From the IMG/VR virus record IMGVR_UViG_3300046557_000206, positions 1-20,997 of that record: a stretch of DNA of 20,997 bases; one strand, 5' to 3'. Of the stretch, positions 1,455 to 17,913 are shown piece after piece; position 1 is the first letter of the stretch; every line of letters starts with the position of its first letter. This DNA comes from a virus. The position numbers and the translations under genes were made by a program. Below the pieces are notes generated by a model, which was given only the letters and a program-made list of their open reading frames with translations, had not been told where the DNA came from and did not search any database.

Positions 1455-1686
1455 TGATCTGCTTCCTTAGATCGTCGAGTTCTTCTTGGAGTCGTTCCAT
1501 CGAACGATCGTCAGAACGAGTGTATCCTGCAATCTTTGCCATCTGATCTACGCAATAGTTACAGTAATAGACGTGACCAAAGAAATCTTCGATCATTTCC
1601 ATATCCATAAAAAATTCGCGATCAGATGCTCCACCACAAAGCCGGCAATGACCTGGAGAGCGAGCAGCAACTTCTACCAGATACAT
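1219..1686 (-). CDS. Small protein with a Cys4 zinc-finger-like N-terminus and coiled coil
   Basis: 155 residues. CRLCGG (C14, C17) and YYCNYC (C42, C45) make a plausible four-cysteine zinc site, followed by a Glu/Arg-rich coiled coil (about 61-80) and a basic C-terminal third ending NQLNLFA. The ATG at 1684-1686 overlaps the stop of the preceding gene as TAATG, so it is probably translated by coupling. The C-terminal 78 codons share DNA with the membrane-protein gene in another frame. The cysteine pairs argue the N-terminal half is real. Whether the protein runs to its full length is less certain. Partner and role are not recognised. Confidence 0.65.
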   Translation of the reverse strand: MYLVEVAARSPGHCRLCGGASDREFFMDMEMIEDFFGHVYYCNYCVDQMAKIAGYTRSDDRSMERLQEELDDLRKQINDFGNLFDGLLTCGIDLYGLLDFLDANRFEDPTAKRERAALRRAVKLAAREKELAGQTDERGSVDVPNPASNQLNLFA

Positions 1687-1970
1687 TACTTCTTAGAACT
1701 CTTCGCCTCAGCCTCTTCCGCAGGGGCTTCCTCTTCTCCGCTTGCAGCCGCTTCGTCTGCCTTCTTACGCGCAGCGGGAGTAACAGCAGCGATTGTACCT
1801 TCCGGGCCAATCGGAATATTAAGGATAACAGCAGGCGTATCTGGAGAAACCTGATGAAAGGCGGAACCAATGCTGGAATTCAACTGCCACGGACGAGTAC
1901 CATCGAACTCCACATCGAATGATGCAACAATCTCATCCGTATCGAAGTTCTTAATATCAAATCGGACCAT
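1686..1970 (-). CDS. Small hypothetical phage protein with acidic Ala/Glu-rich tail
   Basis: 94 residues from ATG 1968-1970, which overlaps the terminase stop as TAATG. A TTG six bases further upstream would add two residues but is less likely. Residues 1-65 look like a compact beta-rich domain (FDIKNFDTDEIVASFDVEF and AVILNIPIGPEG). Residues 66-94 are low-complexity Ala/Glu/Lys ending KSSKK. It sits between the large terminase and the zinc-finger gene in the packaging part of the late operon. No function recognised. Confidence 0.7.
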   Translation of the reverse strand: MVRFDIKNFDTDEIVASFDVEFDGTRPWQLNSSIGSAFHQVSPDTPAVILNIPIGPEGTIAAVTPAARKKADEAAASGEEEAPAEEAEAKSSKK

Positions 1971-3484
1971 TACCAATCATCTCCTAGCATCGAGTTAACG
2001 TCTTTTGCCCCGTAATCTTGCAACCTTGTGAGGTCTAGATCCACCCCGTATCTAGGAGAATCTAGAACTAGCGCCTCTGAGCTACCCAACAGATTCTTCG
2101 GTTCCGGTAGTGATACTTCATCTGCTGAGAATCTACTTGCAACTCCGTAACGTAAAGCGTCACAAGCGTGATCGTCTTTCTTAACTGGGACTTCTTTAAT
2201 ATTATTCGTCGCTTCGATCTTACGACTAGACCATCTGCCCCAACGGTACCGTTGCATTTCCCAGAGTAGTTTCTCACAATTCCTCGCAATCATGAGTTGA
2301 TTACTCTCAAGCAATCTAGCTACCCTGTTAATACCTCCAGGTACATTATTATTCCCGAGAGCAATTGAGAGGCCACACTCCACATACTCGATTTGAACAG
2401 AAGTACCCGTTATTGGGTCTGTATTTCTGATAGACGGATCGCCTACGATAAAAGTCGGGTCAACTCCAAGAACCTGGCATCGTTCCCTAATTTGGCTCGC
2501 ATGATAGGAAACAATCTCTCCCGACACGTAGTATTCATCATAAATAAGCAATCGACCGTCAGAGTCCGCCGCAATCCATAGGAAACAGGTGGGGTTATTA
2601 AATCCATGGTCCATCGCAAGGAAGTGCGTCCATTTTGTACGGACAGTCTCCCAGCGTTCTGTGCCAAGAATGGGTTGGATAACGTTGGCGCCTTCCTTAA
2701 GATACCTTCCATAGATCAGACCACCAATCTGAACGAACTTACCGTGACGTCGTGCTTGCTTTTCCTCCTCAGTCATACCAGCCAGGTACGAATCAATTTC
2801 ATTCGTGTTGATATAGATATTTGAATCCATCCCTACTTCAATTACATAAGGATCTGGATTCAATTTCGAGGGCAAATAGATATCATCGTACACCCACGTC
2901 ATTCCATCTAGCGGTGTCATAGTAAGAATCCATGAACCACTAATATCAATTAGACGAGCCATATTCTCGTTGAAAATTTCCTTCGGAGGCTCTTCATCAA
3001 ACCAAATAATATGACGAGAGGTACCCGCATGTTTATCTACATCTTGGTCATACGAAAGGAACTCCATCGTTGAACCATTAGCTAGAGTCAACATACGGGT
3101 ACTCTTCTGGAAAGATTTCTCCCAGCTCCCGTCAATTAACTCGCTTGGGGGCATCCAGCGAGCAATCTCTGGTTTCATTATCAATTCGAATCCATGGTCG
3201 AAGTCCACAGAAACGCCACGGGCTTGAATAGGTGGTGGAGGAGTAGGTCGATAGGGGTGCTTCCCTGTCAACCACATAATCATCTCTGTAGCGCCACATA
3301 CCGTTTTCCCCGCTCGGTTGCCTCCCATTAAGCCGCGGCCTTTAGCCATAGAGGCGTGAATAAGTCTCTGATGTTCCATCGGCTTGTAACCAAAGACACT
3401 AGGCCGAATCGACGTCCTTCTAAGGACAGAAGTTAGTTCAGCTAGAATCTCTTGTTCCGCTAGAACTCGTGCCTTTCTCGCCAT
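1970..3484 (-). CDS. terL: Terminase large subunit (packaging ATPase and nuclease)
   Basis: 504 residues, usual size for the family. The protein powers DNA translocation into the prohead and cuts concatemers. Visible motifs: Walker A GLMGGNRAGKT (51-61), Walker B IIWFDEEP (159-166, D163/E164), coupling motif LTMTP (187-191), then a C-terminal RNase-H-like nuclease with acidic candidates in AMDHGF (D292), VGDPS (D349) and KDDHACDALRYG (D437, D438, D442). The ATG at 3482-3484 is preceded by GATAGGGAG very close to the start, with AAAGGA further upstream. The 5' end overlaps the small membrane gene by 47 bases. The stop is fused to the next gene's start (TAATG). Confidence 0.96.
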   Translation of the reverse strand: MARKARVLAEQEILAELTSVLRRTSIRPSVFGYKPMEHQRLIHASMAKGRGLMGGNRAGKTVCGATEMIMWLTGKHPYRPTPPPPIQARGVSVDFDHGFELIMKPEIARWMPPSELIDGSWEKSFQKSTRMLTLANGSTMEFLSYDQDVDKHAGTSRHIIWFDEEPPKEIFNENMARLIDISGSWILTMTPLDGMTWVYDDIYLPSKLNPDPYVIEVGMDSNIYINTNEIDSYLAGMTEEEKQARRHGKFVQIGGLIYGRYLKEGANVIQPILGTERWETVRTKWTHFLAMDHGFNNPTCFLWIAADSDGRLLIYDEYYVSGEIVSYHASQIRERCQVLGVDPTFIVGDPSIRNTDPITGTSVQIEYVECGLSIALGNNNVPGGINRVARLLESNQLMIARNCEKLLWEMQRYRWGRWSSRKIEATNNIKEVPVKKDDHACDALRYGVASRFSADEVSLPEPKNLLGSSEALVLDSPRYGVDLDLTRLQDYGAKDVNSMLGDDW

Positions 3485-3659
3485 GCTCCCTATCTCGATC
3501 CTTTAAAAAAGGCAAGTCGCTAATTGGCATGATACCTACCATAACCATACCAATTACTAACTCTGGTATGGAAGGATCTGGCCCATAAAGCCCGTCTATA
3601 ATTACAAGTATGCCTAAGAGAAAGATCACTACTCGTCGAATCACATCAAAGAGGTTCAT
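3438..3659 (-). CDS. Small membrane protein next to endolysin, possible holin
   Basis: 73 residues from ATG 3657-3659, preceded by GTAGAGAGATT. A longer frame starting at 3704 would run into the endolysin gene and is rejected. Two hydrophobic stretches are visible (VVIFLLGILVIIDGLYG, about 9-25, and IPELVIGMVMVGIMP, about 30-45), followed by a highly charged hydrophilic tail (DRDREHGEKG). Two membrane segments, a short length, a charged C-terminus and a position directly after the amidase fit a holin that releases endolysin. That role rests on context, not on a recognised family motif. The 3' end overlaps the terminase start by 47 bases. Confidence 0.7.
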   Translation of the reverse strand: MNLFDVIRRVVIFLLGILVIIDGLYGPDPSIPELVIGMVMVGIMPISDLPFLKDRDREHGEKGTSSSGTRDSS

Positions 3660-3682
3660 AATCTCTCTACAGGGCCGAGAAT

Positions 3683-4552
3683 TTAAGGCGTAAAGCGTCC
3701 CCACAAATCTCCAGTGGGGTTTTCTCCTACGACTGGACCAGTTTTCTCCATGTACGTGTTATTCACGTCAATTGGAGCGTAACCGAAGTCCTTAGTAGCT
3801 TCCTCTAGAGCGGCGTTCGTTGGGAGCCAAAATTTGCCGCCATCGAATACAATAAAAGCATTTCCCCAATTATTAGCGTCACCATTCTTTACAAGAACTC
3901 TCACACTATCATCTCCTGGCGTAGGCATTGGTGCGCTAACTAGGAGCGAGCCAACGCGAGTACGGAATGTATCAATTCGATCTTGGTAACCAGCCCAATC
4001 TTGTCCGCTCTCCCACGGACCAAAAGGATCAATTTTCCGGCCAGGGGTTGAAGTACCGGGTCCACACCATTCTTTATGAGCAAAGACTACCAGAGGATCA
4101 GTCCAACCGAAATTCTTCATTACTTCGGCGCAGAACTTAGCTGTAGAGTCTATTTGGGCTTCTGGATACGCTTCCGCGCCCGTTCCTGGATTTCCAATTT
4201 CGATTGAGACTGTGTTAAAGTTAACTTTGTCTTGAGCAATAGTTCCGAGCGGCGTGTTGTAAGGCCCACCTTTACCGCCGTGATTACAAGAACCAGCAGC
4301 ACAAACATAAATGGTACCGTTCCGAGAAATGTAGACATTACTAATAGGAGCAGAATCACTACCACTAGTAATGTAAGACGCATCTCCCGCACCATCAGAA
4401 CTTTTCCCGCTCGCTGTGTGATGAACTGTGATTCCTTTAAGTGCATCAAAACCGCCGTGGCTATTAGAACGAGTAGCCCAGCCGCCTTGCTCGACGACTG
4501 GATAACCCGTCCATCTAGCCAAATCAGCTAGATTAGAAATAAAGATACTCAT
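3683..4552 (-). CDS. Endolysin: N-acetylmuramoyl-L-alanine amidase (Amidase_2/PGRP fold)
   Basis: 289 residues. It would cleave the amide bond between muramic acid and the stem peptide for lysis. The zinc-amidase signature is visible: GITVHHTASGK (H44/H45), VSIEIGN (E118), FAHKEW (H159) and PGRKIDP (D175), matching the order of ligands and catalytic residues in the family. After about residue 190 a separate C-terminal region (210-289, with aromatic residues such as NNWGNAF and KFWLP) may be a wall-binding or other accessory domain that I do not recognise. No signal peptide is seen, so export would need the adjacent putative holin. The ATG overlaps the stop of the acidic small ORF as TAATG. 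Confidence 0.92.
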   Translation of the reverse strand: MSIFISNLADLARWTGYPVVEQGGWATRSNSHGGFDALKGITVHHTASGKSSDGAGDASYITSGSDSAPISNVYISRNGTIYVCAAGSCNHGGKGGPYNTPLGTIAQDKVNFNTVSIEIGNPGTGAEAYPEAQIDSTAKFCAEVMKNFGWTDPLVVFAHKEWCGPGTSTPGRKIDPFGPWESGQDWAGYQDRIDTFRTRVGSLLVSAPMPTPGDDSVRVLVKNGDANNWGNAFIVFDGGKFWLPTNAALEEATKDFGYAPIDVNNTYMEKTGPVVGENPTGDLWGRFTP

Positions 4553-4689
4553 TAGAGTCCTTGTGTTGCTTCCTCGACTGTCTCTTCTCCATGCTCTACT
4601 TCTGGCATTTCCTCGGGAACTTCTTCACCATCATCCTCCATACCCTCCGGCTCTTCTGCCGGAACTTCCTCAGGACCAGTCTCACTCAT
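4552..4689 (-). CDS. Very small acidic protein (45 residues) upstream of endolysin
   Basis: ATG at 4687-4689 to TAA at 4552-4554 gives 45 residues beginning MSETGPEEVPAEEPEGMEDD; it is dominated by Glu, Pro, Gly and Asp with no Lys or Arg. AGAGAGGAAATCA immediately upstream is a good ribosome binding site, and the stop is fused to the endolysin start (TAATG). Without this ORF the 144-base gap in a tightly packed operon would be unexplained. It is probably intrinsically disordered. It could act mainly as a translational coupler for the endolysin. Confidence 0.6.
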   Translation of the reverse strand: MSETGPEEVPAEEPEGMEDDGEEVPEEMPEVEHGEETVEEATQGL

Positions 4690-4701
4690 TTGATTTCCTC
4701 T

Positions 4702-4998
4702 CTAGGCAGGCATGTTGCCATTAGTTAGAACAGCTGACTTATAATCCATCAAGGACATATTATTTGGTAGTCCAAGACCAAGAATAACAGAACGTTCCTG
4801 ATACCATTCACGTTCTTCATCAGAAACTGAACCGTCCTCTATACCGGCTCCAGTAAAATACCAACGCTTAGCGTCATTAACTGTATTTGTATTCGGAGAG
4901 ACAGTCTGTCGATTGAAGTAAGTACGTTCTTTCGCCTCCCACGAAGAACCTACCTCAGCAGTAAGCCGAAGCATCACAAGATCCGCTATGCTAGGCAC
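4702..4998 (-). CDS. Small hypothetical phage protein (late operon)
   Basis: 98 residues from a GTG start (4996-4998) that overlaps the preceding gene by 8 bases. Predicted mostly helical with the segment AKRWYFTGAGIEDGSVSDEEREWYQERS in its middle (about 44-71). No cysteines, no membrane segment and no recognised domain. It follows the tail-fibre genes and precedes the lysis genes, so a small virion or assembly role is possible but not shown. Confidence 0.7.
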   Translation of the reverse strand: MPSIADLVMLRLTAEVGSSWEAKERTYFNRQTVSPNTNTVNDAKRWYFTGAGIEDGSVSDEEREWYQERSVILGLGLPNNMSLMDYKSAVLTNGNMPA

Positions 4999-5269
4999 TA
5001 GCAGGCCAATTCGCTTGAACTGATGAGAGAATCATTCCATCTGTAATAACAGATTCATCTCCACCAGGATTAGGAATATTAGCATCGAGTGCGTAGGAAT
5101 AGGCAGCTTCTACGTCAGATGCCGAGGCTACTGCCCATCTAATCTCTTCTAGGTAGAGATTAGGTGCAACCGGACCTCCCTTTGACTGCTGCTCCTGTGC
5201 AATAGCAGACATAATGCGAGAAATGTATGCCTGATCGTTCACACATATACCTATAGTCTTGTAAGACAC
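4991..5269 (-). CDS. Small hypothetical phage protein after tail fibres
   Basis: 92 residues from GTG 5267-5269, placed directly against the TAA of the upstream tail gene (TAAGTG). Contains CVNDQAYISRIMSAIAQEQQ and a helical segment around residues 43-62 (EEIRWAVASASDVEAAYSYA). Function not recognised. Its position between fibre genes and lysis genes suggests a minor tail or assembly protein. Abutting and overlapping boundaries on both sides support co-translation. Confidence 0.7.
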   Translation of the reverse strand: MSYKTIGICVNDQAYISRIMSAIAQEQQSKGGPVAPNLYLEEIRWAVASASDVEAAYSYALDANIPNPGGDESVITDGMILSSVQANWPASA

Positions 5270-5977
5270 TTAGTAACCAATCCTTTCCATAGTCCACCAA
5301 CAACGGGACCCTTGCAGAGCTTTACCACTTCCGTCAGCTGAGTAATAAAAGGCTAATTGATCTGCTGCCTGAACATTAGCAAAGATCGTTTGAATTTGGG
5401 CATTACACCAGTTTCCGTTCATACTGTTTACCACATCCACATTCGCAATAATAGAGAGACTTCGAAATTGCACGCAGGAAACGGTTACATATTGACCTAC
5501 TGGTGTAGTTACATTAGCTGTAAAAGAAGCAGTCAGTCGATAAGTACCGGGATAAGTTGCAATGACTCTGCTCGGAGGGTTACTCCCCATTCCTACAGAC
5601 ACATCTATAGTAATAGGAACCTCTGCATTAGACCCTGGTATAGTAGGGTTACCCGTTACTCTACCAGCGGCATAACAAGGACTTGGTACCCATACTCCTG
5701 CAACTCTCTCCCAGATTACATTACTACCAGTATCAAAACATCTCGCTCCATTTGGAGGACTGGTCCAAGCAGCATCTCTAGCGGCAGCAGAAGCAAAAAT
5801 AGGAAATGATCCATCAAACTTCCATGCCATATCTGTAGGATTAGATCCAGTACGACGAAGAACTTGTTGATCTACTCCTGATGGAATTCTATTATCCACG
5901 TATTGCTTAGTAACAGCCTCAAGAGCAAGCGTTGGATCAGCGGGTAGAGATATAGGAGTAGTTGATTTTCTACTCAT
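5270..5977 (-). CDS. Tail fibre / receptor-binding-like protein
   Basis: 235 residues. The N-terminus has DPTLALEAVTKQYVDNRI, a variant of the DPxxxxxAxTKxYVD motif frequent in phage fibres. The C-terminal part (about 95-235) is beta-rich with small-residue strands (GTYRLTASFTANVTTPVGQY) and ends CWWTMERIGY, resembling a C1q/TNF-like or other trimeric fibre head. Such proteins bind the host surface. The ATG overlaps the upstream fibre gene stop as ATGA. The same motif in the upstream fibre suggests the two share an attachment module. Confidence 0.75.
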   Translation of the reverse strand: MSRKSTTPISLPADPTLALEAVTKQYVDNRIPSGVDQQVLRRTGSNPTDMAWKFDGSFPIFASAAARDAAWTSPPNGARCFDTGSNVIWERVAGVWVPSPCYAAGRVTGNPTIPGSNAEVPITIDVSVGMGSNPPSRVIATYPGTYRLTASFTANVTTPVGQYVTVSCVQFRSLSIIANVDVVNSMNGNWCNAQIQTIFANVQAADQLAFYYSADGSGKALQGSRCWWTMERIGY

Positions 5978-7341
5978 CCAAGTACCGTGATTCTATAATC
6001 ACCTGCTGCTGGAGCGACAGCAAATCGAACAGTCACATTATTAGTATCAGTTGCCTCAACATCACACTCTACTTCATCCCATGGAGTAGTTGAACGAATC
6101 ACTGAAACAAGTACGTCACGCGTTCCAAAAGCATGGTTAACTACGGTTGAAGTAGCAGCGGCACAAGCAGCAGAAAGCTTACGAGCAAGTGTCCCTGCCA
6201 TAATTGTTGCCAAGTTAGCAGGGGTCAAATCTTCTGGAGCGCCAGCGCTTGCAGTAACACGACCTTTGATTGTATTCTGGTTCATGTTTGCCATCTTGGC
6301 ATTTGTTACTGCCGAGTTGGCAATTGTGGTAGCATTGGAACTCGCCGGTGCAGTTACATCGCCAGTAAGAGCAGCACGACTAAGAAGATCAGCAGCAACA
6401 ACGAGAGAAGCGTCCACAGTAACGTCAAAAGCGTTACCGTTCTGAACAAGACCAGCACCAGCAGTTAAAGCTGTTCCAGCGCCAAACTGTGCCCAAACTG
6501 TTGTAGTTGATCCTGGAGTAATTGGAGCGTCAGTTGTACAAACCCAAACAGTGTTACCTAGAGTTGTACCTTCCGAGACAAAGGCAGCAGCACCTTCTAG
6601 TTCTCCTACAGCATCGGCGTCCGTTGCCCTAGTCCATGCGCCAGCAGCAACTATATAAATACCATTCTGCGATCCTGTAGTCTGATTCTTAACAAGAACT
6701 CGATCACCAACAATCGCTGACACACCATCAATTGTCTGCGCAGCCGAAAGAGAAATGTTAACTGTTGTTGCACATCTAACTGCTTCTTTCCAGGAAAGTC
6801 CTGCTGCTACGTTATCAACGTAATTCTTAGTAGCAGCGTCCTGAGCACCCGTAGGATCAGCTAAGTTAATAATTCTTTGGCTGTTAAGATTAACGCTAGC
6901 CGTAGGAACACCAAGAGCAGAAAGTGCAATTGCTGAGTGAGCAGCATTATCATGCGTTGGGTTACCGTGTGCGTGATCCGAACGAGCAAGCGTAGCAGCA
7001 GCACCGTTTGTAGATGAAGCACCAAAAGTAGCTTCTGCTGTTACTGCTCCAAAAGCTTCTCGACCATGCTTGTGATCTTCACGCGCATACGTAGTAGCAA
7101 CGCCGACTACAGCAGCATCACCGACTGCTTGAGTTGTAACCGTTGTCGCTGGTACTGCTCCTGCTCCACCTTGTGCAGCAACCCAGCCAGAACCATTGTA
7201 CCAATAAAGAATGTTACCGCCGGTATCGAAATAAATTTGACCCTTGACAGGCAAGGAAGGAGCAGATGGAAGATTCTGAATTACAGCATTCTGTAATTCT
7301 AGTTTCGTTAGATCAATTGCGGTCTGAAACTTACGAGCCAT
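5974..7341 (-). CDS. Tail fibre protein with paired HxH motifs
   Basis: 455 residues, Ala/Thr/Val-rich and repetitive. The N-terminal domain (1-60) has GQIYFDTGGNILYWYNGSGW, a fibre attachment pattern. DHKHG (89-93) and DHAHG (122-126) match the HxH motif of T4-type fibres, where histidines bind metal ions along the trimer. DPTGAQDAATKNYVDN follows (about 162-177), then a beta-structured repeat region (VLVKNQTTGSQNGIYIV, TVWVCTTDAP) found in many fibres. The start has TAGGAG seven bases upstream of the ATG. Probably an elongated homotrimer binding the host surface. Specificity cannot be read from the sequence. Confidence 0.85.
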   Translation of the reverse strand: MARKFQTAIDLTKLELQNAVIQNLPSAPSLPVKGQIYFDTGGNILYWYNGSGWVAAQGGAGAVPATTVTTQAVGDAAVVGVATTYAREDHKHGREAFGAVTAEATFGASSTNGAAATLARSDHAHGNPTHDNAAHSAIALSALGVPTASVNLNSQRIINLADPTGAQDAATKNYVDNVAAGLSWKEAVRCATTVNISLSAAQTIDGVSAIVGDRVLVKNQTTGSQNGIYIVAAGAWTRATDADAVGELEGAAAFVSEGTTLGNTVWVCTTDAPITPGSTTTVWAQFGAGTALTAGAGLVQNGNAFDVTVDASLVVAADLLSRAALTGDVTAPASSNATTIANSAVTNAKMANMNQNTIKGRVTASAGAPEDLTPANLATIMAGTLARKLSAACAAATSTVVNHAFGTRDVLVSVIRSTTPWDEVECDVEATDTNNVTVRFAVAPAAGDYRITVLG

Positions 7342-7349
7342 CCGTACTC

Positions 7350-7994
7350 CTAAGAGAGATAAGCCTTACCAGAAAAGGCAGTAGCAAACGACACGATTAC
7401 ATTTGGTCCCGAATAAACAATGTCGCCTTCAACTTGAGCACCACTAGAATCTACTACTGTGACATTTGGAACGAAGGGTAGACCATGAGTAATTGTCCAT
7501 GTTATTGCGGGAGTCCCTTGATTAAATACATAACTCTGTGGACCACCTGATCCGCCTCCACCAGAACCTAATGGATCATAAAGAAGATCAGCTTCCGCTT
7601 GCGTGAGAAAAAGTGCATCGGCTTCTGCCTCGGTTAAATAACCATTTCCACTTCCTACAGGGGATAGAGGATCTGTGAGAATGTCGTGGAGATTAACAGG
7701 TGAGGGTAATCCTGAGGTTACTAAAAAGGCCCATTCGAGAGAGCCACCTTGTAGAGAAGGAATTTCTTCATAGACGACGTAATAGGTACCATCTGGCGTG
7801 ATGTTGTCGTTACATTCTAGAGCAATAGACCAAACCCCAAAGCCATTTGTAACTCCATCAACTAGTGGTCCTACTTCTGTCCAATTGTTCTTACGGAAAC
7901 CGTTAGTAGGACGAATGTAAATCCGAATCTTAGCGCCAATGATCGGATTAAGTGATGGATCTACGAGCGTGTTGGTAACCGTCTTAGTTGCCAT
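7350..7994 (-). CDS. Tail fibre/appendage protein, upstream fibre gene
   Basis: 214 residues. Residues 1-90 look like a beta-sandwich module (TNTLVDPSLNPIIGAKIRIY, then TYYVVYEEIPS). The middle repeats YLTEAEADALFLTQAEADLLYD, a short helical duplication typical of fibre shafts, then a GSGGGGSGG linker. The last third (TITHGLPFVPNVTVVDSSGAQVEGDI) resembles fibre or collar C-terminal domains. The ATG (7992-7994) has AAGGTAG upstream and overlaps the upstream gene by 11 bases. Best read as a short fibre or fibre-attachment protein. Confidence 0.75.
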   Translation of the reverse strand: MATKTVTNTLVDPSLNPIIGAKIRIYIRPTNGFRKNNWTEVGPLVDGVTNGFGVWSIALECNDNITPDGTYYVVYEEIPSLQGGSLEWAFLVTSGLPSPVNLHDILTDPLSPVGSGNGYLTEAEADALFLTQAEADLLYDPLGSGGGGSGGPQSYVFNQGTPAITWTITHGLPFVPNVTVVDSSGAQVEGDIVYSGPNVIVSFATAFSGKAYLS

Positions 7995-8181
7995 CTGTTT
8001 CTACCTTAACGGCAACGATTGTCCCAGTCTCGGTCTCAACAAATTCTACAGGTTCCAGAACTCGAAAAGAACCTACTGGGTCCTCAATTGGCTTTGCTTT
8101 GGCTTCTTTCTTTTCTACAGGAAGCGGCACTATCTGGTAGTTGGCCGTTTCCCTAAACTTCGAAAGGACATTAGGAGTCAC
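7984..8181 (-). CDS. Small hypothetical charged protein
   Basis: 65 residues from GTG 8179-8181, with AAGGAAA well placed upstream. The middle is Lys/Glu/Pro-rich (EKKEAKAKPIEDP); the C-terminus is beta-prone (GTIVAVKVETDGN). It overlaps the next fibre gene by 11 bases and starts 9 bases after the previous stop. No recognised domain. Could be a small virion or assembly component. Confidence 0.6.
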   Translation of the reverse strand: MTPNVLSKFRETANYQIVPLPVEKKEAKAKPIEDPVGSFRVLEPVEFVETETGTIVAVKVETDGN

Positions 8182-8190
8182 GTAGTTTCC

Positions 8191-8955
8191 TTAAGTTCCA
8201 GGGACGAAATAGGTACCGATTGAGCCTTTAATGGTGGGATCAAACAGCCAGTAAGGACGAATACTCATGTTCAATCCAGGTGCGAAATCTTCGTTGTTTG
8301 ACCAAGCTCCGTTAGCTGTTCTTGAACCCGAAGCAGTAATGGCTACTGGAAGTGTTCGCCAAGTAGCGTCGCGAGAAGTTTGGAAATCGAAGCCCCACTC
8401 CATTGGAGCGTTAGAATTGAACGTAATCGTGAAGTTGCTTCCAACTCCTGTACCTCCGAGTGTAGCAATAGTCCGTACCACTATGCTCCCGTTGAGCAAT
8501 TCAGAGGGCACAGCCGTGTTAATCTCGCCGGCACTCAATCGGTACAAGAATCCTAGGTCGAAGATAGTCAATCCACTTTGCTGAGCTTTCGGTAGAAACT
8601 TAAATTCCTTGTGGTAAGCACTCGCCCTTAAAACGTTTCCTACAGGGTTCAAAGTGCTCTCAACGTATCTTTGGTATCGTTCGAAGTCCGTAATCCATTT
8701 ACATTCAATGTCGTCAGCCGTTAGGCCCGGCGTCACGTCCTCAGGGTGAGTTAGTGTAAACGCCACTACTCCGTTAGCCGCTGACGTGTTAAAGAACTTC
8801 TGATCTACGTAGGCTTTAACTAGTGGGTCGTTGTACCAAGTAGGCTTAGCCTTAAGTAAGAGCCTCTCTTCTGTTCCCCCAATTCGATTCTCGACTACGC
8901 TCCCTCCTGAACCGCTTACAGCCCGACAACAGTTCCTAATTGTAACGTTAACCAC
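8191..8955 (-). CDS. Hypothetical structural-type phage protein
   Basis: 254 residues from GTG 8953-8955, directly against the preceding TAA. Beta-rich composition with segments such as GVVAFTLTHPEDVTPG, SIVVRTIATLGGTG and RDATWRTLPVAITASG; FNSNAPMEWGFDFQ is notable. No catalytic motif, membrane segment or cysteine cluster beyond NCCRA at residues 8-12. Its place between a DNA-packaging-type gene and the fibre genes, and its soluble beta-rich nature, suggest a tail or head-tail component. I do not recognise the family. Confidence 0.7.
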   Translation of the reverse strand: MVNVTIRNCCRAVSGSGGSVVENRIGGTEERLLLKAKPTWYNDPLVKAYVDQKFFNTSAANGVVAFTLTHPEDVTPGLTADDIECKWITDFERYQRYVESTLNPVGNVLRASAYHKEFKFLPKAQQSGLTIFDLGFLYRLSAGEINTAVPSELLNGSIVVRTIATLGGTGVGSNFTITFNSNAPMEWGFDFQTSRDATWRTLPVAITASGSRTANGAWSNNEDFAPGLNMSIRPYWLFDPTIKGSIGTYFVPGT

Positions 8956-9627
8956 TTAATTCAACTCTTTACTTGAGACGTTCAGAATCTTCTCTTCAAG
9001 AAGCGTAGCAATCTCAGTCAACTGCTCTGGCTCTACGTACCTCATCAGGATTTCCATTAGCTGTGCCAGAATCTTGGTGAGGTTAATAACTGTTTCACTC
9101 TCCGGCCTAAAGAGCCCCGTGAACTCGTGAAAGTACTTAATCGCTTGCAAGTCCCCCGCTAACACTAATTTCCCTAAACTGAGTTTCGCTTCTTGTTCTA
9201 GACCCGTGAATCGTTTATCAATTGCTGAATTTAACCGCTTAGCAAAATCCGGGTTCTTTAGCCACTGGTTGTATTCAAGTGTACTAGACCCAATGCTTGT
9301 TAGTTTAGCCTTAACAGTTCTCGCGTCATTGAGATCAAGTAGCAGTTTAATAGCCATCTGCTGCTTAAGACGAATTGCCTGATCCTCTGTACCAAGTTCT
9401 TGAGTTCTATATTTTCCTACAGGGGGCCGGGAATTAATTGGCTCCTCACTTTGCTTAAGCGAGGGTGGGGAGTAATAGGTAGGAAGATTTGCTGATTTTA
9501 GGAGGTTGTTAATTGCGTTTGGGTTTTGATAGATTTGTGCACGGAGGTTTGGAGGAACATTAGTTATCTCCGGGTAACTACCGTGAGTTTCTAAGTGGTG
9601 CTCTAAATACTCCAGAACCTCTAGCAT
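8956..9627 (-). CDS. Putative terminase small subunit / helix-turn-helix DNA-binding protein, first gene of the leftward operon
   Basis: 223 residues, almost all helical. The middle contains LNDARTVKAKLTSIGSS and then YNQWLKNPDFAKRL, a pattern like the helix-turn-helix of small terminases and related phage DNA-binding proteins (phBC6A51-type). The sequence GDLQAIKYFHEFTGLF (about 158-173) matches the GDxxAIKxxxExTG signature common after that domain. A Leu/Glu helix at 180-215 could drive oligomerisation. Small terminases recognise the packaging site and load the large subunit. Here the gene is more than 5 kb from terL. It is the promoter-proximal gene of the leftward operon. Ribosome binding site is weak. 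The assignment is from pattern memory only. Confidence 0.6.
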   Translation of the reverse strand: MLEVLEYLEHHLETHGSYPEITNVPPNLRAQIYQNPNAINNLLKSANLPTYYSPPSLKQSEEPINSRPPVGKYRTQELGTEDQAIRLKQQMAIKLLLDLNDARTVKAKLTSIGSSTLEYNQWLKNPDFAKRLNSAIDKRFTGLEQEAKLSLGKLVLAGDLQAIKYFHEFTGLFRPESETVINLTKILAQLMEILMRYVEPEQLTEIATLLEEKILNVSSKELN

Positions 9628-9748
9628 GTGTCTTAGAGTAGATTAATTAGTTAGCAAGCGAAACTTGGCACTAAAATAAAAAAATTTGTAGAGAAAGAAG
9701 CTTCGCAAGCTTACCGGCGTGGGGTGCAAATCGCGGGGACCAAACTTT

Positions 9749-9956
9749 GTTAGGCGTGCCTAACACGAGCCGTTCATTTGCCTTAATTCGGCTGTTAAGT
9801 AAGCCTAACTTTAGGCATTCATTTGCCTTAATTCGACTGTTAGGAAGGCTTAACGGCGGTTATTCATTTCACCTTATATCCATTATTCGATTGACCTTAT
9901 ATACGTAATTCATTTGACCTTATATCCGCAGTTTCTGGTCGCGCTATATACGTTAA
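9749..9956. repeat. Iteron-like tandem array: 45-base composite repeat and 22-23 base units
   Basis: Three 16-base palindromic elements start exactly 45 bases apart: GTTAGGCGTGCCTAAC (9749), GTTAAGTAAGCCTAAC (9794) and GTTAGGAAGGCTTAAC (9839). Between them the sequence TTCATTTGCCTTAATTCG recurs (9773, 9818), then related units TTCATTTCACCTTATATCC (9863), TTCGATTGACCTTATATAC (9886), TTCATTTGACCTTATATCC (9909) and a weaker one at 9932. The unit length of 22-23 bases is about two helical turns. Arrays like this usually bind an initiator or a repressor. Which protein binds here is unknown. Confidence 0.85.
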
Positions 9957-10044
9957 TTCGGCTCATTCCATTGCCGAACCGTTGTGGCACTACGCGAGCG
10001 AGCGCGCATCGCGTGCGCGCCGTTCCGATTCCGAGCCGAGAACC

Positions 10045-10073
10045 TTTCGGGACCATAGTCCTATCCGAATGAT
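10045..10073 (+). promoter_or_regulatory. Weak promoter-like site with CATAGT element
   Basis: GGACCATAGTCC (10050-10061) is nearly palindromic. Its CATAGT lies where it would fall four bases after a -35 in the two stronger CATAGT promoters of this window. The core hexamers here are poor (TTTCGG, spacer 17, AATGAT), so activity would need help or the site may be an operator only. A CCTATGG site in the opposite orientation follows at 10082-10088. It is the best candidate I can find for initiating the 10251-11295 genes. Confidence 0.35.
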
Positions 10074-10250
10074 CCGTTTGGCCTATGGTCAACGGCGACC
10101 GATCGGATTACCTTGGTGAGTGCCGGGCGATAGCACGGGCAGTACGGAGCCCCACTCCGAAAGCGACGGGCAGTCCCCCTGAGAATCGGCGGGACAGTTA
10201 CGGACCTAAAGTCCACCCAACCCAAACCCAAACCGAAAGGGAAACTCACC

Positions 10251-10766
10251 ATGGCAACCGCAGGCAAGACCAAGGTCGGCGGTGAAGTCGTCGTGCCGGA
10301 AGCGATTCCGACCGAGACGACCGAACCGACCGCCGAGCAGGCAAAGTCCCTAGCGGACCTGAACCTGCTTCTCGCCTCGCTCATCACTCTCAGCGTTACT
10401 GCTGCCAGCGATGAACAGAGGGCAGCGCTTCGGAAGGCAGTCGATGCCTACCTGAGCGAGTGCAAGGCAACGTTCTTCTCGCTTCGTCTGACCGCTTCGG
10501 CGGATTACGACAAGGCGACCGAAGGATTCGCCAAGACTTACGAAACGGCGGTTAAGCCGCTTCGTGAGGCTTACGAGAAGGCTTGCGAGCCCTTCGCCAA
10601 AGCCTACGACGAGGCTTGCAAGCCGTTCCAAGGCTTGCTCGCTGGAGCGAAGGAAGCGAAGGACCTGCACGACACCATCGTGACCCTACTAGGCAAGCGG
10701 GACGGATACGGAGACCTCGAACTCCTCCCCGTCCCGAAGGGTAGGGTCCCGAAGGCGAAGGCCTAA
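10251..10766 (+). CDS. Hypothetical helical protein with 11-residue (hendecad) repeats
   Basis: 171 residues. An Ala/Thr/Glu-rich N-terminus (1-30) is followed by helices. Residues 85-128 contain four consecutive 11-residue repeats: DYDKATEGFAK, TYETAVKPLRE, AYEKACEPFAK and AYDEACKPFQG, consistent with a right-handed or straight coiled coil. The C-terminus is basic (KGRVPKAKA). The ATG is preceded by CGAAAGGGAAACTCACC, the extended ribosome binding site shared by neighbours. The gene is visibly GC-rich compared with both arms. A perfect 11-bp hairpin follows the stop. No function recognised; an oligomeric structural or DNA-coating role is one possibility. Confidence 0.75.
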   Translation: MATAGKTKVGGEVVVPEAIPTETTEPTAEQAKSLADLNLLLASLITLSVTAASDEQRAALRKAVDAYLSECKATFFSLRLTASADYDKATEGFAKTYETAVKPLREAYEKACEPFAKAYDEACKPFQGLLAGAKEAKDLHDTIVTLLGKRDGYGDLELLPVPKGRVPKAKA

Positions 10767-10772
10767 CGGTCC

Positions 10773-10798
10773 GGGAGGGAGGCGAAAGCCTCCCTCCC
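10773..10798 (+). terminator. Strong hairpin with GAAA loop after the hendecad gene
   Basis: GGGAGGGAGGC-GAAA-GCCTCCCTCCC forms a perfect 11-bp stem with a GNRA tetraloop, six bases after the stop codon. No T-run follows, so it may be a U-less terminator, a partial attenuator or an RNA-stabilising 3' end separating expression levels of adjacent genes. Confidence 0.6.
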
Positions 10799-10839
10799 AC
10801 CTTCGGCAGCAAGACCACCCACCTACCGAAAGGGAAACG

Positions 10840-11046
10840 ATGCCAGCACTAGTACCAGGTACCGACTGGTACCGTTACGTATCCAAGGCTTACGATCGCC
10901 TCTCGCTTGCGGATCTCCGTTCGCTTTGGCGAGAAGAGGGAGGAGCCTTGCCAGTCGCCGAACGGGTCATCCTCATGAGTGTCTACGCTCGGAAGATGAA
11001 TGGCCGAGCTCAACTACTCGGACCCGCCGGTTATCCGAAGGCTTAA
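10840..11046 (+). CDS. Small hypothetical protein in GC-rich block
   Basis: 68 residues. TDWYRYVSKAYDRLSLADLRSLWREEGG is followed by a helix (ALPVAERVILMSVYARKMN). It is soluble and mildly basic. The segment ADLRSLWREEGGALPVAERV looks helical and could be a small DNA- or protein-binding bundle, but no domain is recognised. The start is set by CGAAAGGGAAACG directly upstream, the same leader as in the flanking genes. It stands alone between two hairpins. Confidence 0.65.
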   Translation: MPALVPGTDWYRYVSKAYDRLSLADLRSLWREEGGALPVAERVILMSVYARKMNGRAQLLGPAGYPKA

Positions 11047-11103
11047 GTCTTTCGTCCTGAGCATGACGCTAAACCGCTCACCACACCAACCGAAAGGGAA
11101 CCC

Positions 11104-11295
11104 ATGACAATGGCACTCACAACCGCGATCGTTACGCTCAAAGCGGAGATTGCGATGCACGGCCCGAAGGTGGAGAAGCTCCACCGGGACTACCTGGCAG
11201 CGGCGAAGGAACAGCACTCTCGCATAACGCTGCTGGCGATTCTGACGGAGCGTCGGAAGGAAGATGCCTGGCAGCGTTACGGGCTCGGCGAGTGA
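11104..11295 (+). CDS. Small helical hypothetical protein in GC-rich block
   Basis: 63 residues, predicted to be a helical hairpin: TTAIVTLKAEIAMHGPKVEKLHRDYL then AAAKEQHSRITLLAILTERRKEDAWQRY. Charged heptad-like pattern suggests a coiled coil. The ATG follows CCGAAAGGGAACCC. A second ATG three codons in is a less favoured start. The coding stretch ends 10 bases before a GAAA-loop hairpin. No function recognised. Confidence 0.6.
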   Translation: MTMALTTAIVTLKAEIAMHGPKVEKLHRDYLAAAKEQHSRITLLAILTERRKEDAWQRYGLGE

Positions 11296-11305
11296 AGCGC
11301 AGCGA

Positions 11306-11331
11306 GGAGTCTGGCCGAAAGGTCAGGCTCC
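11306..11331 (+). terminator. Hairpin with GAAA loop after the GC-rich gene block
   Basis: GGAGTCTGGCC-GAAA-GGTCAGGCTCC makes an 11-bp stem with two G-T wobbles and a GNRA loop, 10 bases after the stop of the third small gene. It matches the architecture of the hairpin at 10773-10798 but has different sequence, implying selected structure. No T-run follows. Confidence 0.55.
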
Positions 11332-11391
11332 GGGCTGGCGCCCGCGTCGCAACATTTGGCCTCGCATTCTCGCATTCTATCTTTACAATCT

Positions 11392-11421
11392 TTAGTAATA
11401 GCGTTACTTAGTAATAGCGTT
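11392..11421 (+). repeat. Tandem 14-base motif, left copy pair
   Basis: TTAGTAATAGCGTT occurs at 11392-11405 and again at 11408-11421 (16-base period), followed by CTTTA. The same pair occurs in inverted orientation at 12807-12836, on the other side of the helix-turn-helix gene. Likely binding sites, or ends of a small DNA unit. Confidence 0.8.
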
Positions 11422-11704
11422 CTTTATCTAAGCCGCCGTGTTCCACGAGTCGCATTCATTTAGCCTTTTAATAGCTTGAGCTAAACTCAGATTGTTTAAT
11501 TGTCTGGGTCTTAACTCGGCGCCGGGCTTGCGCCGGTCGCATTCCATTCGTTCTATAAGTCAGACTTTAGATTAGCAGCGCTTTATAGGGCTTTTTACTC
11601 TTGGCGCTATGTAACTCTCTCTACAGGGCGGCGTTAACTATCTGTGGGCATTACCTATGCACGCTCGATTATTAGGTGCCTCATCACGCATAATTTCGAG
11701 ACTA

Positions 11705-11743
11705 ACTTGAACCCCCTTGCTTCTTCGAAGCAGGGGTTCAAGT
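11705..11743. repeat. Long inverted repeat / hairpin
   Basis: ACTTGAACCCC...TGCTTC on the left pairs with GAAGCA...GGGGTTCAAGT on the right: 17 bp interrupted by one 2-base bulge, with a TTC loop. It lies about 145 bases upstream of the leaderless promoter. It could be a bidirectional terminator that insulates that promoter, or part of a structured RNA. The GGGGTTCAAGTC part resembles a tRNA T-arm but no tRNA folds around it. Confidence 0.6.
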
Positions 11744-11889
11744 CTAGGGCAAGTCTTTGTGCATAGCATACATACGCTGACCTGGCCTTATGCGCCCTAT
11801 GCGCCGAGGCGCTATGCACGCATAGGAATAGCGAGAACGTGCATATAAATACCGTCACTTACTTAGATCGACCAACTATGCCAAACCCC

Positions 11890-11919
11890 TTGACAGACCA
11901 TAGTCCGCTCCCTTATAAT
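11890..11919 (+). promoter_or_regulatory. Consensus -35/-10 promoter, predicted leaderless start
   Basis: TTGACA (11890-11895), 18-base spacer, TATAAT (11914-11919): both hexamers are perfect. The first base of the ATG at 11927 is 8 bases beyond the end of the -10, the usual distance to the transcription start, so the mRNA should begin at or next to the start codon. The spacer holds CATAGT (11899-11904) and ACTATG lies upstream (11875-11880), a dyad with the same spacing as at the 18630 promoter. Confidence 0.85.
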
Positions 11920-11926
11920 CCGCCCT

Positions 11927-12805
11927 ATGAGCGCCTCCGAAGTCCTACCTAAGTACCCACTTACTACTCTCTCAGCTACTGAATTAGCAACTCGCCTAAA
12001 GAGTCACTTTAGACTCACGTTTGCAATTGATCAACTTGCAGATTTACTGCTAGCACTCGACGGAGCAACAGAGACGGACAAACTGCACACTCAATTGAGT
12101 CTGGCTGAAGCAAGTGGAATTAATCAGAGTACTATTTCGCGTGGGCTAGTACCTCCTAAGTGGCTTTCACAATTCGTGACTGATCTACCAAAGGGACTCA
12201 AATTAAACAGACTAGCTTTAGATAACCTGCTAGTGACTTCGAAAGGCGGCCCTGTAGAAAGAATTAAGACCACGAGAACGGTATCAATCAACGATCGGCG
12301 ACAAACTACGGATAAGGGTTACTTCGTATTGAGAGTAATTCCTCCAGTTAACCTTCACCCACAACTCCAATCAATTTACGGGAAGGAAGGAATTATTGCA
12401 GATGAGTGGAAGCAATATGTTATGCAAACAGGCCCGCGTCAACTAAATGAGTTAGTGTGCTTTATTAAGTGGGCGCAAGATAATCCTCTAGCAAATCCGT
12501 ATGACTTAGGAATGTTTCCGCCCGATTCATTTGGTAAAGAAGTCTATCAAACAGACCCTCAATTTCGAGTCGCGGAATGGCAAAGCTTTATCCTAGAGAA
12601 CCTAGCTGCTTTATCCATCGAGAAGATACAATTCTACTTCATGCTCTATCTTTGGTTAATGAGCACTAAAGAAATTGCGCCTAATTTCAACAACACGCAT
12701 TACCTAAAGGCTATTGTTGATATTATTCCTCGACAAACGAAAGCACATCTCCAAGCGAACTTCGAGTTCTTTACTTTTCTCGATGAATTCCACTGGAAAG
12801 CTTAA
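11927..12805 (+). CDS. Predicted helix-turn-helix regulator, leaderless; family not recognised
   Basis: 292 residues. Residues 57-80 contain LSLAEASGINQSTISRGL, a good helix-turn-helix pattern (LAEASGI-NQSTISR), preceded by a helical N-terminal region. The C-terminal two thirds (about 120-292) is a soluble domain rich in Trp, Phe and Asp (FIKWAQDNPLANPYDL, FYFMLYLWLMSTKEIAPNF) that I cannot place. The start is ATG 11927 because the promoter leaves no room for a leader and no ribosome binding site is present. The gene is AT-rich relative to the block on its left. An immunity-type or early repressor that autoregulates through the adjacent dyads is the leading idea; a replication initiator is an alternative. 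No integrase is present to support lysogeny. Confidence 0.75.
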   Translation: MSASEVLPKYPLTTLSATELATRLKSHFRLTFAIDQLADLLLALDGATETDKLHTQLSLAEASGINQSTISRGLVPPKWLSQFVTDLPKGLKLNRLALDNLLVTSKGGPVERIKTTRTVSINDRRQTTDKGYFVLRVIPPVNLHPQLQSIYGKEGIIADEWKQYVMQTGPRQLNELVCFIKWAQDNPLANPYDLGMFPPDSFGKEVYQTDPQFRVAEWQSFILENLAALSIEKIQFYFMLYLWLMSTKEIAPNFNNTHYLKAIVDIIPRQTKAHLQANFEFFTFLDEFHWKA

Positions 12806-12806
12806 G

Positions 12807-12836
12807 AACGCAATTACAAAATAACGCTATTACTAA
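12807..12836 (-). repeat. Tandem 14-base motif, inverted right copy pair
   Basis: Read on the minus strand: TTAGTAATAGCGTT (12823-12836), two bases, then TTTGTAATTGCGTT (12807-12820, 12 of 14 matches), followed by CTTAAG. Same 16-base period and order as 11392-11421, opposite orientation. It lies between the stop of the helix-turn-helix gene and the -35 of the next promoter, where an operator or UP-like element would sit. Confidence 0.8.
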
Positions 12837-12846
12837 AAGAAACTTA

Positions 12847-12876
12847 TTGACACCTTCCATTCCGTCGTGGTACCAT
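12847..12876 (+). promoter_or_regulatory. Promoter of the 12958 gene and helicase operon
   Basis: TTGACA (12847-12852), 18-base spacer, TACCAT (12871-12876), predicted start near 12883. The spacing equals that of the two other promoters on this arm. An ATG at 12883 lies at the predicted +1 and is in frame with the gene, so a leaderless longer form is conceivable, but the strong ribosome binding site at 12945-12953 favours ATG 12958. Confidence 0.75.
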
Positions 12877-12904
12877 TCCCGCATGGAGCCGGACGACGCC
12901 CAAA

Positions 12905-12924
12905 GTGCTTGCAATTGCAAGCAC
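12905..12924. repeat. Perfect 20-base palindrome in a 5' leader
   Basis: GTGCTTGCAATTGCAAGCAC is a perfect palindrome between the predicted transcription start (about 12883) and the ribosome binding site. As DNA it is a good operator for a dimer. As RNA it would fold into an 8-bp stem with an AATT loop and could protect the transcript. Confidence 0.75.
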
Positions 12925-12957: not shown

Positions 12958-13866
12958 ATGAGTGAGGAAACCGAATCCATTAGGGATAAGGTCGAGGTTG
13001 CAATGGAGTACGGTATCAATATCGTCTCCTTTGTGACGCCGAATACAAGGGATGAGGCTTTCGCCGACGCAATCTTTGCGGCGAATAAACTCCGTGGCGA
13101 ATTGGACTCCGGCGATGAAACTCGCCCGCCTACTGCCACGGAATTCAAGAAGGCTAATGAATTGGACGAGGATGAAACGGCCGAGGTTATGGTCTTTCGT
13201 CAGGAATTGCACGACCTGTTCGTGAAGCATAACGCTTACAACACGACTAAGGTTCTCGCCGAATTCGCTAAGGTTCTCTCGACCGAGGCTAAGGTTTGCG
13301 ATGACGTGCTGGAAATGAATCTCCAGCAGGAATTCAACCTGAATAAGAAAGTTACGCTTGGCAAGAAGCAATTGCACCAGGACTTCATTGTCCTCCGCAA
13401 TCTCATCATCGAGATGGCTAAGACTCTCGGATGGAAGCCGGAAAGCAATGATTGGAAAACCACTATCCCGGCTAAGTCGGCGAATTACGCTGACGAAATG
13501 CCGATGCGTAAGGCTGAAGTTGCTTTCTACTCCCATTCTTATCGGGTCCAGCAGATCAATACCGTGAGGGATGAGAGCGGCGAGGTTATCTCTAGCGAGT
13601 TGGTTAGGGAAAGGGAATTCGAAGCGGGCGAGAACGCAACGTCACTCGCTCACGCTGTTGGACTGCTTCCCTCGCTTACCCGTAAGGGAATCCTTGGCTT
13701 CATCAATGCTTTGTGTGAATCATTCGGCATAGAGGATTTCAAGGCTCTCGGCGAGGATTACAAGTCGGGCCGTCCCGATGAGCCTTCCTTCACGTTCGTT
13801 TACTCGGACGATACCTACTTCAACCTGTTCATTCTCCCGGCCAATACGATCCAGAAGGGTAACTGA
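12958..13866 (+). CDS. Unknown 302-residue protein preceding the SNF2 helicase
   Basis: Starts MSEETESIRDKVEVAMEYG at ATG 12958 after CGAAAGGGAAACCAG; earlier in-frame starts (12847, 12883) lie in the promoter and at its predicted +1. Residues 1-60 are acidic. A long helical section (about 70-165) includes LFVKHNAYNTTKVLAEFAKVL and LNKKVTLGKKQLHQDF. The C-terminal part contains VREREFEAGENATSLAHAVG and ends with a beta-prone segment (SFTFVYSDDTYFNLFILPAN). No Walker, nuclease or zinc motif is visible. It is separated by only 5 bases from the helicase gene, so the two are surely co-expressed and may act together in DNA processing. I do not recognise the family. Confidence 0.8.
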   Translation: MSEETESIRDKVEVAMEYGINIVSFVTPNTRDEAFADAIFAANKLRGELDSGDETRPPTATEFKKANELDEDETAEVMVFRQELHDLFVKHNAYNTTKVLAEFAKVLSTEAKVCDDVLEMNLQQEFNLNKKVTLGKKQLHQDFIVLRNLIIEMAKTLGWKPESNDWKTTIPAKSANYADEMPMRKAEVAFYSHSYRVQQINTVRDESGEVISSELVREREFEAGENATSLAHAVGLLPSLTRKGILGFINALCESFGIEDFKALGEDYKSGRPDEPSFTFVYSDDTYFNLFILPANTIQKGN

Positions 13867-13871
13867 TACCA

Positions 13872-15728
13872 ATGACAAGCATTGAATCAGGTGAACCGAT
13901 CATCGTCCCGACAATGAGCCAGGTCTCTATGGAGATCGCTCGTATTCGGATGAAGATTGACAACCTTAAGAACAGTGAGAAGGGTGTCGATATCCCGAAC
14001 ATCGACAAGGAGAAAAGCGAGGCTTATCGCGTTTATCAGGAAACCGTTTCCATTCTGGAGGCTAAGCGTAAGGCCGTCCAGGACGTCAAGGATGCCATCA
14101 CTAATCAGCGAGTGGAAACAGAGGCTGATCTAGAGAAGAAGTTGAAGTTGCTTGCCGAATTGCAGAAGGCTGCACAAGAGGCGGCTTTCTTTGAAGAGAT
14201 GGAGAAGGCTCTGATCGAATACCTCCAGGATATCGAATCCTGGAAGATCGTTGCCGCTTTCCAGAGGCAGGACATTCTGGAGACATTCAAGGCTTACAAG
14301 TTGGGCATGAATGGCTTTGGCAATTTCAACGATATGGGCCTGGGTAAGACAGTCGAGATGATTATGGCACTCATGCTCATCAAGGCTGACTTCCTTAAGG
14401 AGCATAGTCGGGAGCCGAGAATCCTGCTGCTTACCAAGCAGAGCCTCATCATTTCCACGATGAGGGAATTCCACAAGTGGGTGCCTACCTACCCGATCTT
14501 CCCGATTGCTGGATCAATGCCGCCGGCTCAGCGTGAGACAATGCTCGGCATTGCCCTGTCGAATAACCTCACTATCATTTCCAACTACGAAATCGTTAAC
14601 ACGACGAAGATCGTTAGGGAAATGGATTGGGATATCGTGATCGTGGATGAGTGCCACAAGTTGAAGGGTGGCGCTAACAAGAGCAAGCCTTCACAAATCT
14701 GGATCAATACCAAGGAAGTGTGCCGGCGTGCAAGGTTCATGATTATGATGAGCGGCACGCCTATGGTCAACGCTCCTGAGGAAATGTGGGCCTTGCTCCA
14801 CATCTTTGATCCCGAGCGCTTTCCAACCATGAAGAAGTTCATGAGGGATTTCGGGCTCTACAACTATTCGACAGGGCTTGTGAAACTCGACTCTGACCTT
14901 CTCTTGAAGGGTGCTTTGCACGGTCGTTGCGTTCGCCGGCGTAAGGATGAGGTTGGTATTCAGTTGCCTGATCTTGTTCACTCGTATCGGTATCTGGAAA
15001 TGACCGACGCTCAGCGTGAATTGTACGACCACATGAAGAGCAAGTTCTATATCTGGCTGGAGAAGCAGATCGAAGATAACCCTGGCAAGGCTTTGGCAGC
15101 GCAGGCTATCATCGCTCAACTTACTCGACTGCGCCAGATCAGTGTTTGGGCTGGCTCTATCAAGTACCAGGATGAAGAGACTGGCGAGACAAAGAGGATG
15201 GAGTGCTCTGAGTCGAGCAAGGTGAACGAGGCAATGGATATCATCGAAGAATTGAACGATAGCCAGGAGAATGTCGTGCTGTTCTCCACGTTCAATGAGC
15301 CGATGTACGAAATCCAGCGCCGATGCAAGGAGAAGGGAATCATTTGCGAAACGGTTACCGGCGACTACTCGGACCCGAACATCTCGCAGCGTTTTCAGAA
15401 CAATGAGATCCGAGTGCTTTGCATTAACTTGCAAATGAGCGAGGGAATGAACCTCCAGAAGAGCAAGGATTGGGAAGGTGGCGCTTCTAATGTCATCATG
15501 ATGGATCTTTGGTGGTCACCGGCTCGCAATGAGCAAGCAGAGGCACGCATCCACCGTACTGGTGCAACAGATAACTGCACCATCCATATCCTCCACAATG
15601 AGGATTCCATCGACGGATTCATCGCCGCTAAGGTTGAAGAGAAGGCAGCGCAATTCGCCAACATCCTTGAGCGTAAGGAAATTCGTCCGGCATCCGAGTG
15701 GAAGAACCTCTTGGAAGGATTGCTCTAA
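13872..15728 (+). CDS. SNF2-family DNA helicase/translocase (superfamily 2)
   Basis: 618 residues. Residues about 20-115 form a coiled-coil N-terminal region. Then come the two RecA-like lobes: motif I MGLGKT (155-160), motif Ia LLLTKQSLI (185-193), motif II VDECH (258-262), motif III MMSGTPMVN (292-300), motif IV VVLFSTF (468-474), motif V SEGMNLQ (523-529) and motif VI QAEARIHRTG (555-564). The LWWSPARNEQAEARIHR segment is characteristic of SNF2 proteins. These enzymes use ATP to move along double-stranded DNA. Phage members are usually assigned to replication, recombination or protein displacement. No nuclease domain is fused. No strong ribosome binding site lies directly before ATG 13872 (AAGGG is about 12 bases upstream), suggesting coupling to the preceding gene. 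Confidence 0.93.
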   Translation: MTSIESGEPIIVPTMSQVSMEIARIRMKIDNLKNSEKGVDIPNIDKEKSEAYRVYQETVSILEAKRKAVQDVKDAITNQRVETEADLEKKLKLLAELQKAAQEAAFFEEMEKALIEYLQDIESWKIVAAFQRQDILETFKAYKLGMNGFGNFNDMGLGKTVEMIMALMLIKADFLKEHSREPRILLLTKQSLIISTMREFHKWVPTYPIFPIAGSMPPAQRETMLGIALSNNLTIISNYEIVNTTKIVREMDWDIVIVDECHKLKGGANKSKPSQIWINTKEVCRRARFMIMMSGTPMVNAPEEMWALLHIFDPERFPTMKKFMRDFGLYNYSTGLVKLDSDLLLKGALHGRCVRRRKDEVGIQLPDLVHSYRYLEMTDAQRELYDHMKSKFYIWLEKQIEDNPGKALAAQAIIAQLTRLRQISVWAGSIKYQDEETGETKRMECSESSKVNEAMDIIEELNDSQENVVLFSTFNEPMYEIQRRCKEKGIICETVTGDYSDPNISQRFQNNEIRVLCINLQMSEGMNLQKSKDWEGGASNVIMMDLWWSPARNEQAEARIHRTGATDNCTIHILHNEDSIDGFIAAKVEEKAAQFANILERKEIRPASEWKNLLEGLL

Positions 15729-17690: not shown

Positions 17691-17913
17691 AACAATCAAT
17701 CCAACCATTCCTCAACTCCCAAAGTTTGAGGTCAATGACTTAGTGGAGGTTTATCCGGGGCAGTTAGGTCGCATTTTATCTCCAGCTTATTACGCAATGC
17801 CAAACGGAGGCTATTACTTAGAGGTTGAGTTGCAAGGATCGGATACAAGAAACCCGATCATCTATGCTCCTTATTCCATAATGACTTGGGCGGACAATGA
17901 AGAGTTTCGATGA
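17680..17913 (+). CDS. Small protein with KOW/SH3-like beta domain
   Basis: 77 residues from ATG 17680, chosen because AAGGAGAACA precedes it; the in-frame start at 17659 is rejected. After a Thr/Pro N-terminus, FEVNDLVEVYPGQLGRIL and then YYLEVELQGSDTRNPIIYA give the strand pattern of a small SH3-like barrel (KOW/CarD-like cores start similarly). Such folds bind RNA, DNA or polymerase. The assignment is structural guesswork. It overlaps neighbours on both sides. Confidence 0.65.
   Translation: MPTETINPTIPQLPKFEVNDLVEVYPGQLGRILSPAYYAMPNGGYYLEVELQGSDTRNPIIYAPYSIMTWADNEEFR

Follow-up and report, generated by a model that had tools for sequence, protein, structure and literature searches.

Genomic Context of the Locus

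The window, that is, the whole 20,997-nucleotide stretch analyzed here, is a fragment of a virus record (IMG/VR record IMGVR_UViG_3300046557_000206). Its terminase and helicase were closest to those of MW202795, a podovirus carrying whiB genes, and the next closest terminases were those of Jasmine-group Arthrobacter phages, Jasmine itself being a podovirus (PMC5513430). The virus is an actinophage-like podovirus that probably infects actinobacteria. The structural genes run leftward in the left half of the window, and the replication genes run rightward in the right half. Another IMG/VR contig (L006) was identical to the window across positions 1-12426 and extended it leftward by 6,863 bases. 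L007 was a relative at the 85% level in the terminase.

The divergent intergenic region between the structural and the early genes contained phased tandem arrays (positions 9748-9963) made up of units of 45 bp and 23 bp that have TTCATTTG-type cores; these arrays are likely an operator or origin array. Three small early genes (10251-11295) had a G+C content of 58-61%, higher than that of the remaining window; they lacked homologs among the fetched loci, and the first of them had none in IMG/VR beyond the same phage. A common leader, CGAAAGGGAA, occurred at 10226, 10819, 11083, 12935, and 19969 (in the last in the form TGAAAGGGAA), each time right ahead of a start codon, constituting a strong repeated ribosome-binding context that is missing before the 292-aa gene described next.

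A non-coding interval of 465 bp (11425-11889, 48% G+C), which harbored a strong hairpin (11705-11743) and gave no Rfam or tRNA match, precedes a consensus promoter (11890-11919, plus strand, TTGACA-18-TATAAT, 12/12). This promoter is followed by an orphan gene encoding a putative regulator of 292 aa (11927-12805, plus strand). The original prediction described a leaderless helix-turn-helix gene. The promoter match suggests that the gene is indeed leaderless, as the -10 ends 7 nt before the ATG; the helix-turn-helix signal is weak, with a Pfam HTH_3 match to residues 55-72 at E = 0.34 and 11.4 bits against a gathering cut-off of 23. The protein is labeled a regulator because of this weak motif and its position. 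Its only homolog in phages, plasmids, IMG/VR, GTDB genomes, PHROGs, NCBIfam, PADLOC, and PDB sequences was the one on the identical contig, and weak PDB matches to glucosyltransferases (E about 0.7) were rejected. AlphaFold2 models built without homologs (pLDDT 37 for the full protein and 48 for residues 17-105) were too poor for structure search. The GC3 of the gene was 0.39, versus 0.54-0.76 in the left and 0.63-0.66 in the right neighbors, and its codon usage was not foreign.

Downstream lies the promoter of the helicase operon (12847-12876, plus strand, TTGACA-18-TACCAT), with an extended -10 (TGGTACCAT) and an in-frame ATG at 12883, 6 nt past the -10. A TGGTAC-type -10 resembling it was also found in relatives. 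The leader of the operon, just downstream of the predicted start, contained a perfect 20-bp palindrome, GTGCTTGCAATTGCAAGCAC (12905-12924), the only one of its kind in the window, which could be an alternative dyad operator or an RNA hairpin. The operon begins with a 302-aa gene (12958-13866, plus strand; alternative start 12883), followed by a SNF2-type helicase gene (13872-15728, plus strand).

Inverted Pairs of a 14-bp Motif

The 14-mer TTAGTAATAGCGTT, which is asymmetric, occurred exactly at 11392 and 11408 on the plus strand and at 12823 on the minus strand, and with 12/14 matches at 12807 on the minus strand. Each arm thus formed consists of two copies with a 16-bp period: the left arm (11391-11424, plus strand) contains the copies at 11392-11405 and 11408-11421, and the right arm (12804-12837, minus strand) contains the inverted unit, exact at 12823-12836 and 12/14 at 12807-12820. 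The arms form an inverted repeat matching at 31 of 34 positions (blastn self-comparison, E = 1.4e-6), extendable to 39 nt at 87% in a repeat search. The tandem motif of 16-base period and its inverted second pair were therefore recovered at the positions, and with the 14/14 and 12/14 matches, given by the original prediction; the segment between them holds one gene, as it had stated, with a length between the arms of 1,379 bp rather than 1445.

The best spaced inverted repeat in the window scored 25, compared with 13.0 +/- 1.2 (maximum 20) in 300 third-order Markov shuffles, and an exact tandem 14-mer within 40 nt was absent from 60 shuffles. Among approximately 155 comparison loci, gathered by terminase or helicase similarity, a lower self-BLAST E for spaced inverted repeats was found only in three distant helicase matches (L121, L145, and L149). 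The inverted arms are real and well above chance. The original prediction had also proposed a genome-wide search for the motif; with up to two mismatches allowed, the 20,997-base record contained only the two pairs. The 6,863-base left extension of L006 contained no added copy at the same threshold. Over the 27.9 kb available of this incomplete genome, the tally is two pairs and one weak site. The weak site (17791-17822) is a possible third tandem-like copy inside a coding frame; its score exceeded that of 99.3% of shuffles, and the relative L105 scored nearly as high.

The two arms are placed differently with respect to promoters. The right arm begins within the TAA stop codon (12803-12805) of the enclosed gene, overlapping it by two bases, and ends 9 bp ahead of the -35 of the helicase operon, in agreement with the claim that it lies just upstream of this element. 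The right pair, and only this pair, is situated entirely upstream of the TTGACA/TGGTACCAT promoter (12804-12837 versus a -35 at 12847), and its center is at about -62 relative to the predicted helicase-operon start near 12883. The left pair had no recognizable promoter alongside, and the promoter of the enclosed gene had no copy of the motif (best match 9/14).

The Helicase-Side Slot and Its Repeats in Relatives

The 302-aa gene is a distant ortholog of an approximately 225-aa gene that several relatives carry just upstream of the helicase (best E about 6e-5 within a comparison set of 19 proteins). The same slot in L089 is taken by an AT-rich gene of 265 aa that directly precedes the promoter of the 302-aa-gene ortholog, and in L093, L094, and L096 the gene adjoining the helicase is AT-richer than its neighbors. 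Sub-threshold winged-HTH matches were obtained for the slot genes of L093, L096, and L105. The slot gene appears to be leaderless in L096, where the ATG is 6 nt past the -10, and nearly so in L094 (9 nt). None of the relatives' slot genes had detectable homology to the 292-aa gene of the window. On these sequence comparisons, the slot upstream of the helicase unit is common to relatives, and its occupant differs, is AT-rich, and is often HTH-like. The comparison of related phages proposed by the original prediction yielded the same slot filled by a different gene. The relatives are too distant for a true empty-site comparison, because close relatives of the 302-aa gene, the helicase gene, and the first small gene are absent from IMG/VR except in the same phage.

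In 31 loci of the family, tandem arrays with periods of 13-45 were concentrated in intergenic DNA (12 of 21 arrays, with 9 of 21 coding; intergenic sequence makes up approximately 10% of bases, p = 2e-7), a count in which coding and intergenic sequence were split by a simple longest-ORF rule and in which three window arrays, the studied pair among them, flatter the enrichment somewhat. With such a concentration, the window's pairs fall most naturally into the class of operator arrays. L041 contained two 20-bp repeats, the second of which ended 9 nt before the -35 of a TTGACA promoter with an ATG just past the -10, and L089 contained two 26-bp repeats directly upstream of the promoter of its slot gene. 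In L096, operator-like CGAACATATGT-type repeats (4149-4250 and 4660-4735) flank a small gene and form a 30-bp inverted repeat, which would make it a second case of operator-like clusters in an inverted arrangement. In seven relatives, the 400 nt preceding the orthologous gene contained no near-exact (13/14) tandem repeats, a weak negative result because the threshold would also miss the right pair of the window (12/14). Jasmine (KU160650) had no spaced inverted repeat.

Inverted repeats of another kind were observed in L094 (4874-5333), L098 (179-620; also L097 and L100), L108 (4268-4700), and L091 (from 3845 onward). Here a YTTGAMAAYTGAA-like stretch, which we take to resemble bacterial 16S-23S spacer sequence, precedes an inverted repeat, and the second arm of this repeat is located some 400 nt further on, right after a small gene. 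The sequence of the arms varies between these phages and their complementarity is kept (weakly in L091), as would be expected of an RNA processing stem.

Function of the Inverted Pairs

The arms are most readily interpreted as operator pairs that serve a transcription regulator of the phage, with the enclosed 292-aa protein as the likeliest candidate, a reading to which we give about an even chance. It is suggested by the promoter-proximal position of the right pair at about -62, by the intergenic concentration of tandem repeats in the family, which does not bear on which protein binds, and by the relative with the same repeats-then-promoter layout. Also in line with it are the standing of the arms far above chance, the repeats of L089 and L096, and the AT-rich slot genes of relatives with their sub-threshold winged-HTH matches and leaderless or nearly leaderless starts. 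Of the two explanations offered originally, paired operators fit these observations, whereas terminal inverted repeats of a mobile unit were left unsupported. Each arm would provide two asymmetric 14-bp binding sites in tandem, with a 16-bp spacing. The consensus promoter would provide early production of the regulator, which on the right pair may raise or gate expression of the 302-aa gene and helicase from an upstream position like that of a class-I activator. The left pair, about 1.4 kb off and in opposite orientation, might act as a second site, through looping or by blocking transcription that reads through from the small genes upstream. The genomes themselves show the repeats and where they lie, the matches to promoters, and the slot common to relatives; we infer binding by a protein, the enclosed gene product as the binder, the sign of regulation, and looping. 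Against the operator reading stand the HTH match below the Pfam cut-off, the lack of a motif copy at the gene's own promoter, and the promoterless left pair. Moreover, a Cro/C1-type dimer more usually binds a dyad, and the perfect 20-bp dyad at 12905-12924 lies nearby.

In the main rival to this model, the pairs may serve another regulator, whether a host factor or a further protein of the phage, with the enclosed protein acting at the palindrome or elsewhere. A perfect dyad unique in the window would suit a dimeric HTH_3 protein, and the 14-mer is asymmetric and missing from the enclosed gene's promoter. However, an RNA hairpin would account for the palindrome equally well, and both motif pairs bracket exactly the enclosed gene; we regard this explanation as unlikely, at perhaps one chance in five. 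It is improbable, to a clearly greater degree, that the pairs are iteron-like sites belonging to a replication origin within the non-coding stretch at 11.3-11.9 kb, for which the enclosed protein would be the initiator. An origin is consistent with the tandem arrangement of the sites, the strong hairpins of this stretch, and the adjoining replication genes, but there are only two copies per side, no unwinding or initiator-box signature was established, and the 292-aa protein has no homology to initiators in Pfam, PHROGs, or NCBIfam.

A small mobile cassette carrying the regulator, with the arms as its terminal inverted repeats, is very improbable. The locus resembles an insertion sequence in its 34-bp inverted ends (31/34 matching) around one gene, and the GC3 of this gene is below that of its neighbors. 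The lower GC3 is shared with the relatives' slot genes, which are AT-rich without such ends, and the codon usage of the enclosed gene is not foreign. Unlike insertion sequences, the locus lacks a target-site duplication, whose absence had been noted originally and is borne out here (the longest flank match was 3 bp and off-register), and some insertion elements make none. No transposase or recombinase was recognizable in Pfam, PHROGs, or NCBIfam, which leaves room for an enzyme of unknown type. A second copy of the pair, searched as an exact degenerate pattern only, was absent from IMG/VR (2.9 million viral contigs) except for the identical phage contig, and from 84,980 species genomes (one genome per species). 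The lack of a target duplication, a recognizable transposase, and a second copy thus ruled against a mobile element. It is just as improbable that the 1.45-kb unit is an exchangeable regulator cassette, in which unrelated regulators with their own operator pairs would be swapped into the fixed helicase-side slot and the pairs would be its ends. Least probable of all is that the arms act in RNA, as a long stem spanning the gene, or serve as sites of recombination by which the segment is inverted: they are complementary, and the inverted repeats of L094, L098, and L108, about 400 nt apart around a small gene, would share a transcript, but an RNA stem here would need read-through because the left arm is upstream of the gene's own promoter, and for inversion no recombinase was recognized and L006, the only other contig, runs in the same orientation over the part that it covers.

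The pairs are most likely ordinary operators in kind, with an orphan regulator. Class-I-type upstream activator sites are known at bacterial and phage promoters. The right pair resembles them in lying wholly upstream of the -35 and being centered near -62, and the locus differs in its orphan putative regulator and its second, inverted, distant pair. The operators and stoperators of Cluster A mycobacteriophages are asymmetric 13-bp sites bound by a monomeric repressor, and this repressor shows that asymmetric DNA can be bound by a monomeric HTH protein (PMC9283540). The likeness lies in the actinophage setting and in sites that are short and asymmetric (14 bp in the window against 13 bp in Cluster A); in contrast to the two pairs here, stoperators are numerous genome-wide. 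The 292-aa protein had no tblastn match at E up to 10 to phage records, including the L5-type repressor, and it differs from Cro/C1-type (HTH_3) regulators in its sub-threshold domain score. If the operator reading is true, the locus would provide a compact regulator-operator pair for the little-studied actinophage-like podoviruses, and the helicase-side slot would be one that relatives retain with different occupants and different repeat sequences nearby.
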